42,135 nucleotides of DNA from Planctomycetota bacterium. GTDB taxonomy: Bacteria > Planctomycetota > Phycisphaerae > Sedimentisphaerales > Anaerohalosphaeraceae. Under the pieces are notes generated by a model. That model worked only from the letters and a program-made list of their open reading frames with translations. It searched no databases and was not told the origin of the DNA. The stretch spans positions 1-42,135 of the forward strand of contig VGXU01000019.1 in NCBI GenBank assembly GCA_016873215.1. Reading direction: 5' to 3'. Below are positions 12,424-16,951 of this stretch, in pieces (position 1 is the stretch's first letter; every line of letters begins with the position of its first letter). Position numbers and translations under genes: made by a program.

Positions 12424-14112
12424 CTACCGGCAGGCTCGGATATACCGGGGGTACCACGTGCCGGACGAAACGCACCAGCCGCTTGGGAAATCAGTCAGGC
12501 AATGCGTATAATCATGTCCGAGCATCTCCCGGCCTACACACGTGTCGATATAGAGGTCGTCACGTTTGCGGCATCCATACCGCTCCGCATATCGGTAGTA
12601 TCTGCCCCCGCACATCCAGCCTACTTTGGAACAGAGAATATGATATTCCTCTTGAATCCGCTCGGTACACGAATAGCCCTCGACCGGGGGGCTGCCGCCC
12701 AAAATCTGCTGCTGGGTCAACGGCGGTAGCAGTGTCTCCTCATTATTACTCAGATTTGAGGGACTATCCGAAACAATCAGAGCGGTTCCCTGTTTCCATT
12801 CCTGAAGAAATTGCTGAATAGGAGTTTTCCAGTAGATTTTGCGACTTGTCAGGTCGATAGTCCAGACGTCTTTATTATCAACATGATCCAGAATTACGTA
12901 ATGGTTGGAAGCTGAGAGATGCAAAATTATCGTAGAATTTTTTATCCCGCGCAACGACTCCAGCGTGGTTTCCACTGCGGCACAATACAATCCCGCTTCC
13001 TCCAGTTTTTCCTTCAGCAGATAAAGACTCGTCATCTTATTATTTTGTTGTGTGACTAAAGTTTCCATCTGTTCGGCCGAAAACGAGCGGGAAAATTGCC
13101 GGGCGGCCAGTTGTGCGGCCGCCGCCGCACAACTTTCTTGAACAGACGCCGAATAACTCGAAAACGCGGTTTTCTCGTCCAAAAGCAACTTTATGTCTTT
13201 TTGGTCACTCATATAGTACATCAGAGATTTCCTGCCCGGCGCATAAAATTCCACAAACGTGCCGTCGTTCAGCTTCACCGAAAACTCCGAAGCCGCAGGA
13301 ACCTCCGCCTTCACACTTTCAAACCGCCAGTCTTCATAAGACAAAATCCCACTCCCCTGCGGCGTCGTGACAAACCGCTCAACGGTGACAAGTGTGGGAA
13401 TCCATCGGCCGTCCACTTGAATATACTGGTCGTATTTCTGTTCAATCCCGGTAAACTGCGGATCCTGTATCAGAAAGTTAAGCACCGCATAATTCCTGGC
13501 CGGGTCCAGCACAAAATTCATTTTCAGAACTGGATCGAACTTATCATTCGTAGCCTGAAGATGGATTTGCTTTTGTCCCTCAACCCAGACCTCGCTGCCG
13601 GTACAGGCGTATTGGGACAAATTCTGAAATGTATAAAACCCGTACCCCCAAGGAACGACCCCGGCGCCGAAAGGACCGTAAGTACCAAGTGGAGCCTGTG
13701 TGCCCTGAGATTCTATCACTGCGGAATTAGAGGATTTATAATAACGCGTATAAGTGTCACCGTTCCAGCAGAACACCTTCTCTCTGTTAATATCCAGTGT
13801 ATTGGCGTCAACTGCATTTCTCTTGCCCGGCGTCTCCTTGTCCTCATTGCCCATCGACACCAGAGTAACCTCCCAGCGGAACAATGCCCCGTTCAGACGC
13901 ATCGTTTCACTGGATTCATAAACGGTTTTTTCCTCCCCATAATACGCCAGATGCCGGGCCTGAATCGTTCCCGCCGGCAGCCATGTCTGAACAGGATTCT
14001 GAGTCAGAATACTTAAAATCGTATTAATCTCGTCAGATGAAAGAGTTCTATCCGCAGCAACCGCATTGCAGATAAAAAGCATACTCATTACAGATAGTGT
14101 TAATCTTTTCAT
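12424..14112 (-). CDS. Secreted protein with LolA-like N-terminus, C39-like protease module and Cys-rich tail
   Basis: This 562-residue protein has a signal peptide (residues 1-19, ending AVA). Residues about 25-310 hold many beta strands resembling lipoprotein-carrier-like domains; this is tentative. Residues about 320-440 look like a papain-fold C39 peptidase: C328 in ESCAAAAAQ, then LREKL-type helices, H404 in SNHYVILDHV and D420 in TIDLTSRKIYW. The spacings of 76 and 16 fit C39 enzymes such as ComA, whose His and Asp are also 16 apart; the oxyanion Gln expected six before Cys is not there, though Q325 is nearby. The last 80 residues hold eight cysteines and would be disulfide-linked outside the cell. 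It lies between the dockerin gene and the pseudopilin gene. Substrate unknown. Confidence 0.65.
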   Translation of the reverse strand: MKRLTLSVMSMLFICNAVAADRTLSSDEINTILSILTQNPVQTWLPAGTIQARHLAYYGEEKTVYESSETMRLNGALFRWEVTLVSMGNEDKETPGKRNAVDANTLDINREKVFCWNGDTYTRYYKSSNSAVIESQGTQAPLGTYGPFGAGVVPWGYGFYTFQNLSQYACTGSEVWVEGQKQIHLQATNDKFDPVLKMNFVLDPARNYAVLNFLIQDPQFTGIEQKYDQYIQVDGRWIPTLVTVERFVTTPQGSGILSYEDWRFESVKAEVPAASEFSVKLNDGTFVEFYAPGRKSLMYYMSDQKDIKLLLDEKTAFSSYSASVQESCAAAAAQLAARQFSRSFSAEQMETLVTQQNNKMTSLYLLKEKLEEAGLYCAAVETTLESLRGIKNSTIILHLSASNHYVILDHVDNKDVWTIDLTSRKIYWKTPIQQFLQEWKQGTALIVSDSPSNLSNNEETLLPPLTQQQILGGSPPVEGYSCTERIQEEYHILCSKVGWMCGGRYYRYAERYGCRKRDDLYIDTCVGREMLGHDYTHCLTDFPSGWCVSSGTWYPRYIRACR

Positions 14113-14154: not shown

Positions 14155-15504
14155 TCATTCACCGGAACTTTTCACGTCTTCAACAAAAGCATTCCATTCC
14201 GCCTCCGTGGTTGTACTCTGGAGTTCTCTGCTGGTATCCCAGGCATTCTCCAGAAATTCCGCCAGAGTGTTAGGGTCTATTTGTGTCTGCGAAGAAGACT
14301 CCGCGTTTATTTGATGGATAACAATCTGTTCTAATTGGACCGGCGACATATAATTAACAAGCGATAACACAACATCTCCCGGCCCAGTCGCGGTATAAAC
14401 AAAACTGGAAATAGGACCATCCGATATTGCTTGTCCTATGTTGACCATGGCAAATTGGATCCCATCGAATTGGGTGTATCCAGGACCGTAGTAATCAAAG
14501 AAAGACATCCGTGGAGATGCTAAAATCTGAGCCGTTCCCGGATTATTCGGGTCTGTGGGGTTGTATTCGGTATTGTCTATCCAGCCAAGATTCGGGTCGG
14601 AGATATTAACCTCCAGAGAAATTACAAAAACATCTTTCTCAAAAGTCTGTTTTGCAAGATACAAACAAATACTGTCGCCCGTATTGAGCGTGATTTCCTG
14701 TAATCCAGTCTCATCCTGAATTCTGAAAATCACATTGGGGTCAACTGGCAGTTCCACATTATTGGGCTCCACAGGCGATTCTACGCTATTAGGTTCTACA
14801 GTGTTTGGTTCGGACGGTGTGACATATCCGGGCGTTCCCCACAGCCAGTACTGCGTAAACAAAGTCAGGTCCGTCAGGCCAACCTCCCCGTCTTTGTCAA
14901 CATCAGTTCGCTGACACCACTCAGGATCAGAACATCCTTCTTCAAGCCAATGGGAAGCAAATATCATAAAATCCTTCAAATCCACTACGCCATCGTCATT
15001 GAAATCAACATTGGGAATATTCTCTATCGAAATCGGAATATTCGGGTCCGGCTGCGTCCACGAAAAGCTGTGGTCATAATAACCAACGGGGCAATCTCCC
15101 TCTTGCAGGGCCAGATAATCAACCAGAAACCACATCCCTGCCTGACAGGAGTATTCGCTCGTATAAATATCAAAACCGCCGATCTCCGAGTCGTTCCACG
15201 CATAGACTTTAGCCATCGGACCTGCCGCTTCCAGATGACTCCCCTTCCAGTCTCGTGAATTCGGATCTTTGCCCCTGCCCTGCAGAACACCCATTTCCCG
15301 GTCTTCTCCCGATAAAAACAACCCCCCGCTCCACAAATCGTTGGCGTCGGAATAAATTTGCAGGGAACATTTTTTCCCAACCATAACTTGATTGGTTAAA
15401 ATGGGGGTCAAATCACATGGGTCACACAATTGAACAAAAACCTGGGCATATACAACACCACTCAGCATTATTATTATGGTAATTAAAATTTTATGGCAAA
15501 TCAT
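14155..15504 (-). CDS. Secreted protein with central dockerin and cohesin-like flanking domains
   Basis: This 449-residue protein has a signal peptide (residues 1-20, cut after VVYA). Residues 21-150 form a beta-rich domain. Residues 166-221 are two dockerin calcium loops, DFNDDGVVDLKDFMIFASHW and DVDKDGEVGLTDLTLFTQYW, with aspartates at the calcium positions. Residues 226-257 are a Pro/Glu/Asn linker of repeating EPN and VE units. Residues 258-410 form a second beta domain with GDSICLYLA near its start and ISSFVYTATGPGDVVLSLVN near its end, which is like the end of cohesin modules; the call is tentative. A dockerin in the middle of a protein is unusual. It is the first gene of a run of three ending with the pseudopilin. 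Binding partner unknown. Confidence 0.72.
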   Translation of the reverse strand: MICHKILITIIIMLSGVVYAQVFVQLCDPCDLTPILTNQVMVGKKCSLQIYSDANDLWSGGLFLSGEDREMGVLQGRGKDPNSRDWKGSHLEAAGPMAKVYAWNDSEIGGFDIYTSEYSCQAGMWFLVDYLALQEGDCPVGYYDHSFSWTQPDPNIPISIENIPNVDFNDDGVVDLKDFMIFASHWLEEGCSDPEWCQRTDVDKDGEVGLTDLTLFTQYWLWGTPGYVTPSEPNTVEPNSVESPVEPNNVELPVDPNVIFRIQDETGLQEITLNTGDSICLYLAKQTFEKDVFVISLEVNISDPNLGWIDNTEYNPTDPNNPGTAQILASPRMSFFDYYGPGYTQFDGIQFAMVNIGQAISDGPISSFVYTATGPGDVVLSLVNYMSPVQLEQIVIHQINAESSSQTQIDPNTLAEFLENAWDTSRELQSTTTEAEWNAFVEDVKSSGE

Positions 15505-16432: not shown

Positions 16433-16461
16433 TTGCTCAGGGGATGTCAACTGGATATAAT
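16433..16461 (+). promoter_or_regulatory. Sigma-70 promoter for candidate small RNA
   Basis: TTGCTC at 16433-16438 and a perfect TATAAT at 16456-16461 are 17 bases apart. The start would be near 16468. There is no open frame between it and the terminator at 16563. Confidence 0.65.
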
Positions 16462-16467
16462 ACTAAA

Positions 16468-16593
16468 TGGATTGATTGCTCTTTTTCTTCTTTTACTCTC
16501 GCTGAGACGCGACAAGATTATAGTAGGTAATTAATACGATTTCTCTCAGGAACGTCTCAGCAGGCCGGTACCTAAAAGTACCGGCCTTTTTTT
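16468..16593 (+). ncRNA. Candidate structured small RNA with own promoter and terminator
   Basis: The predicted transcript is about 126 bases. The first 30 bases are unpaired and pyrimidine-rich (CTCTTTTTCTTCTTTTACTC), complementary in character to purine-rich ribosome sites. Then GCTGAGACG (16501-16509) pairs perfectly with CGTCTCAGC (16553-16561), closing a 43-base internal domain, immediately followed by a strong terminator. The left arm could instead pair with TCTCAG at 16544-16549 or with TCTC at 16497-16500, so alternative folds exist. It does not look like 4.5S, 6S, tmRNA, RNase P or a riboswitch class that I know. No open frame follows that it could control in cis, so a trans-acting role is the simplest guess. 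Confidence 0.55.
16563..16593 (+). terminator. Strong intrinsic terminator of the candidate small RNA
   Basis: GGCCGGTAC and GTACCGGCC form a perfect 9-bp stem with loop CTAAAA, followed by seven T residues. Confidence 0.9.
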
Positions 16594-16738: not shown

Positions 16739-16767
16739 TTGACAAACCGTCGATTTTCAGGGAAAAT
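16739..16767 (+). promoter_or_regulatory. Candidate promoter for tRNA-Asn
   Basis: TTGACA at 16739-16744 and GAAAAT at 16762-16767 with a 17-base spacer, giving a start about 60 bases upstream of the tRNA. A TATAAT at 16829-16834 overlaps the tRNA 5' end and would start inside it, so it was not chosen. Confidence 0.4.
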
Positions 16768-16833: not shown

Positions 16834-16906
16834 TCCCCGATAGCTCAATTGGTAGAGCGGGCGGCTGTTAACCGCCAGGTCGTAGGTTCGAGCCCTACTC
16901 GGGGAG
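16834..16906 (+). tRNA. tRNA-Asn (anticodon GTT)
   Basis: A complete 73-base cloverleaf. The acceptor stem is TCCCCGA with TCGGGGA plus discriminator G; the D arm is GCTC-AATTGGTA-GAGC; the anticodon arm has loop CTGTTAA with anticodon GTT at 16867-16869; the T arm is GTAGG-TTCGAGC-CCTAC. The CCA end is not encoded. A strong terminator follows, so it is a single-tRNA unit. It lies between the candidate small RNA and the kinase gene. Confidence 0.97.
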
Positions 16907-16922
16907 TTGAAATCTAAAATCG

Positions 16923-16951
16923 AAAAACCGCTCTGGGCAGCGGTTTTTTTT
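16923..16951 (+). terminator. Intrinsic terminator after tRNA-Asn
   Basis: AAAAACCGCT and AGCGGTTTTT form a 10-bp stem with a 6-base loop and run into a T-tract. Confidence 0.9.

Follow-up and report, generated by a model that had tools for sequence, protein, structure and literature searches.

The window, by which we mean the whole stretch of 42,135 nucleotides that was analyzed, carries the gene of a predicted small RNA with its own promoter and intrinsic terminator. Its neighbors in the window are a 150-aa frame on the opposite strand with no Pfam match, a tRNA-Asn gene, and a protein kinase gene. The parts of the gene are given below, along with the tRNA-Asn unit and a pair of adjoining protein genes that were also observed in the window.

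Positions of the small RNA gene, its parts, and other features observed in the window
Feature	Position	Strand	Basis or remark
Sigma-70-type promoter, TTGCTC-17 nt-TATAAT	16433..16461	+	sequence; homologues have a -10 and a -35 at the same place
-35 element, TTGCTC	16433..16438	+	
-10 element, TATAAT	16456..16461	+	
Predicted small RNA, about 126 nt	16468..16593	+	probable start 7 nt past the -10; end is the T run
5′ single-stranded pyrimidine tract, GCTCTTTTTCTTCT	16478..16491	+	unpaired element with the highest conservation
P1 left arm, GCTGAGACG	16501..16509	+	pairs perfectly with CGTCTCAGC, 16553-16561
AU-rich loop closed by P1	16510..16552	+	contains an extra TCTCAG, 16544-16549, in this genome only
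P1 right arm, CGTCTCAGC	16553..16561	+	covariation with the left arm
Intrinsic terminator hairpin and T run	16562..16593	+	terminator scan (hairpin 16562-16587, 10 pairs counting the outer A-U, then T run); covariation
tRNA-Asn(gtt), near-consensus promoter TTGACA-17-GAAAAT, own intrinsic terminator	16739..16767 and 16834..16949		3′ of the RNA
C39-peptidase-domain protein	12424..14112	-	adjoins the dockerin-domain protein
Dockerin-domain protein	14155..15504	-	

An earlier note on this DNA had described the promoter, a perfect 9-bp long-range stem (P1), a terminator, and two copies of TCTCAG (at 16544 and 16555), and all of them are present in the window. The promoter is missed by a promoter scan of the window because its -35 is weak (3 of 6 positions). 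Among the homologues described below, the -10 is TATAAT in 56 of 71 and the commonest -35, in the same place, is TTGCAA; this conserved promoter follows A/T tracts. The predicted fold of the RNA has an energy of -36.1 kcal/mol, compared with -24.8 ± 3.4 kcal/mol for shuffled sequences (z = -3.3), and the P1 stem pattern occurs once in the window where 0 occurrences are expected (100 shuffles). A covariance model built on 16 sequences (R1) matches the window at 16466-16593 with 81.7 bits (E = 8e-15).

When 59 related genomes were searched at the DNA level, eight partial matches came up, over either the promoter and 5′ tract or the terminator, and on inspection these led to complete homologues in which promoter, tract, stem, and terminator are all present. 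We also scanned 84,980 species genomes with a pattern that required the 14-nt tract. The true matches were all in Planctomycetota MAGs, mostly labeled Phycisphaerae or Sedimentisphaerales; five others (L013, L015, L019, L023, and L027) lacked promoter and stem and were excluded as chance. Contig JAFGQP010000285.1 (Sedimentisphaerales) carries the same RNA sequence as a genome of the same genus (G002). Because the pattern scan demanded the tract, we then used covariance models without that requirement, R1 and a second model, R2, built on 76 aligned matches. R1 matched 32 of 39 genomes of the source family and 104 of 161 genomes of the order. R2 gave full-length matches for 107 of the order's 161 genomes, including 52 of the 66 that are of good quality, and for 61 of 84 genera, in the families that we label f1, f2, f3, f4, f6, and f7. 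No copy was found in six genomes of family f5 (G038, G043, G047, G051, G055, and G058), though surrounding relatives have the RNA, which may reflect loss or divergence past the model's reach. Outside the order there were no matches in 397 genomes of the class (R1) or 392 of the phylum (R2), under stricter filters that may lose weak matches. As far as sampled, the RNA family is apparently confined to the order Sedimentisphaerales. Genomes that carry the gene almost always have a single copy. Genome G040 has two (L098 and L099), which are 96% identical with unlike flanks and are, to judge from this, a recent duplication.

The two helices are strongly supported by covariation. In an unguided MAFFT alignment of the first 16 sequences, 96% of pair cells were standard and 11 of 19 pairs had changed on both sides, matched by 0 of 500 shuffles. 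The order-wide alignment (72 distinct rows), which was fitted to the model and is biased towards it, gave 95.2% paired cells and both-side changes in 18 of 19 pairs (0 of 500 shuffles). Cells changed on both sides numbered 278 against 70 expected, the covariation score was 0.600 compared with 0.264 when shuffled, and pairing dropped to 36-48% in slid controls. P1 had changed on both sides at 8 of 9 pairs, with 93.4% of cells paired, and the terminator at 10 of 10 pairs, with 96.8% paired. The same two helices, and no others, came out of RNAalifold when it was given 25 f7 sequences that had been aligned independently with MAFFT. The earlier note had staked its proposal on conservation of the stem in relatives; the stem is conserved and covaries strongly, and homologues with the covarying stem are found in more than 100 genomes.

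Two additional pairings were considered and rejected. A hairpin showing the tract in its loop is persuasive in individual sequences but is a product of composition only, because swapping the flanks among 69 sequences leaves the energy unchanged (-3.22 as observed and -3.26 ± 0.20 when permuted, at a mean rank of 0.49). By eye, a pseudoknot joining CUUAUA to UAUAAG in the P1 loop is compatible with several f1 members; it fails in f7.

In 10 of 11 near-relative genome pairs, conservation of the RNA exceeded that of either outer flank (for example, 0.85 vs. 0.33 and 0.41). In the exceptional pair, L069/L073, the RNA stood at 0.59, under the promoter and slightly under the downstream flank. The tract is nearly invariant within the source family, where it is GCUCUUUUUCUUCU. 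Most f1 members have this sequence; f2 members have GCUCUUUUUUUUCUU or a close variant of it, and those of f7 have G(U/G/C)UCUUUUCUUCU. About 98% of its letters are pyrimidines across the order; its length and letters differ between families (GCUCUUUUUCUUCU vs. GUUCUUUUCUUCU vs. UUCUUUUUUCC). A second motif, UUGGU or UUGGC, directly precedes P1 in 25 of 26 f7 and 9 of 9 f2 members and is absent from f1.

At the gathering score, Rfam 15 found only the downstream tRNA-Asn in the window and only one tRNA at the loci of 15 relatives. A lax search at the RNA gave sub-threshold matches only. The best in the window, the L20 leader (RF00558), is likewise a stem plus terminator, but it scored 21.5 bits against a gathering score of 58.7 and matched mainly in the terminator region. 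The Rfam search that the earlier note had proposed thus found no family that matches the RNA, in support of its being new, and in the literature on planctomycete or Sedimentisphaera small RNAs we found nothing on it. 6S RNA (RF00013) resembles it in being an independent, single-copy gene with a housekeeping-like distribution. We rejected this identity since RF00013 has no match at the locus and true 6S RNA lies elsewhere in 38 of 40 relatives, as it does in the source genome (C56:13232-13413). We conclude that this is almost certainly a real, new, structured RNA family.

The RNA is also expected to be non-coding, as the earlier note had it. In 45 of 71 homologues, starts upstream of the tract give no frame that runs for 13 codons without a stop, and neither start codons and frames nor the tract length is common to the homologues, which argues against a coding function. 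The conservation in relatives of a promoter and intrinsic terminator belonging to the RNA itself marks an independent small RNA gene. Its surroundings vary. Among 56 loci, the genes most often nearby are the Mg-chelatase family gene yifB/comM (18 loci, mostly divergent and upstream) and queA (24 loci, further downstream). In f7 a cupin-like gene (labeled by eye) is often upstream and prepilin-like genes are often downstream. At five f7 loci (L071, L073, L082, L084, and L085), tandem prepilin-like genes with the N-methylation motif, for proteins of ~270-300 aa, stand 3′ of the RNA. Cluster c4, a small conserved protein (about 70-98 aa) with no Pfam match, is encoded on the opposite strand directly downstream of the RNA and often before queA, for instance at L075 (80 aa), L077, L080, L095, and L104. 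Because the neighbors change between loci, we take the RNA to be an independent gene and not a leader: by comparison with its relatives, it is a free-standing non-coding RNA gene kept in one copy.

How might such an RNA work? We think it probable that it is made constitutively and acts in trans independently of Hfq, its 5′ pyrimidine tract contacting an RNA or protein partner. A strong promoter would drive constitutive synthesis, and P1 and the terminator would shield the RNA while keeping the 5′ tract free. The tract would then act in trans by docking onto its partner without Hfq. That partner could be purine-rich mRNA segments, few and specific rather than ribosome sites generally, or a single-strand pyrimidine-binding protein. 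We infer transcription, the action in trans, and the use of the tract as the contact site. A search for Hfq (PF17209) was negative in 40 of 40 relatives, with the control positive in 5 of 14.

A different arrangement would make the RNA a riboswitch-like leader or attenuator that acts in cis and has the terminator for its output. This would explain why the terminator directly follows a long-range stem, and in 24 of 56 loci queA does lie further downstream, on the strand of the RNA. However, no same-strand gene is constantly downstream, the place being taken by queA, prepilin genes, or opposite-strand genes, and by tRNA-Asn in the window. In several loci the RNA is separated from queA by the opposite-strand c4 gene, and there is no conserved alternative pairing, all of which makes a leader very improbable. 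The earlier note had proposed one such pairing, a switch in which the left arm of P1 chooses between the two TCTCAG copies. Both copies are there in the window, but of 71 distinct homologues only the one in this genome offers the left arm a second 6-nt partner, and the forced alternative fold (-29.2 vs. -36.1 kcal/mol) is 6.9 kcal/mol worse. We give a two-fold switch next to no credence. The same note had suggested that the tract pairs with ribosome sites, which would make the RNA an antisense-type regulator of many mRNAs, like the C/U-rich anti-Shine-Dalgarno small RNAs. The tract is suitably exposed near the 5′ end, and an SD-like purine run is found in 34% of start regions of the source genome. 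However, at 308 of its start regions (defined by a simple ORF rule in about 0.4 Mb of the genome), the tract paired no better than shuffled tracts (mean energy -7.99 vs. -8.45 ± 0.48), and its preference for start regions was equaled or exceeded by 53 of 100 shuffles. Such a regulator is therefore improbable. The proposal of a new structured small RNA with alternative folds is thus upheld as to a new structured small RNA, with no Rfam match, order-wide occurrence, and covariation, and is not supported as to the alternative folds or, past what base composition gives, ribosome-site pairing.

A single perfect-match mRNA target was rejected as well, there being no conserved perfect complement of the tract in 38 family genomes; in these, the exact tract 14-mer or its complement occurs almost exclusively at the RNA gene. 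A fixed mRNA seed is not readily compatible with a tract whose length and letters change between families. The protein branch of our preferred reading can be made specific: the RNA would be a decoy or carrier, and the tract a candidate landing site for cold-shock protein, S1, Rho, or NusB-S10. We regard this as possible but tentative. It is consistent with a tract that keeps its pyrimidine character while order and length drift. In addition, many tracts start with GCUCUUU, which is also the core of the NusB-S10 site of rRNA leaders, boxA (30 of 31 in f1, 9 of 9 in f2, 1 of 1 in f3), and the genome's own rRNA leader reads GCUCUUUGAAAA. That leader (L010, about 1278-1300) has a clear boxA, AAGCTCTTTGAAAAGTGAACAG. 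What its boxA region, GCTCTTTGAAAA, has in common with the RNA is the 7-nt core only; the letters 3′ of the core differ, and the core itself is kept in just 4 of 26 f7 RNAs. A boxA or Nus-factor RNA was rejected on these grounds, and the idea would revive if the rRNA-leader boxA of f7 also reads GUUCUUUU or GGUCUUUU.

Trans-acting bacterial small RNAs with a 5′ single-stranded seed and a 3′ intrinsic terminator include OmrA/B and RsaE. The Sedimentisphaerales RNA resembles them in being short, with its own promoter, a conserved unpaired 5′ region, an intrinsic terminator, and a single-copy intergenic gene. It differs in its long-range P1 around a ~40-nt loop, in its order-wide conservation, and in that a search of 40 genomes of the order detected no Hfq and no target was found. 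By analogy with the protein-controlling RNAs CsrB and 6S, it might be an order-wide housekeeping-type RNA whose role is to sequester, or to load, a pyrimidine-binding protein that acts globally. The candidate partner would differ from theirs and be new, in a background where Hfq was not detected; we consider this rather unlikely.

For the specialist, this RNA, which forms a new family within the known class of bacterial small RNAs, is solid and useful rather than startling. The PVC group, to which Planctomycetes belong, accounts for 8 of roughly 550 catalogued small RNA families (review PMC9029176). With so few catalogued RNA families in the PVC group and no Hfq detected in the order, the RNA offers a concrete handle on RNA-based control. 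It is a near-universal, single-copy RNA with a pyrimidine tract kept order-wide, and cultured members would permit direct tests.
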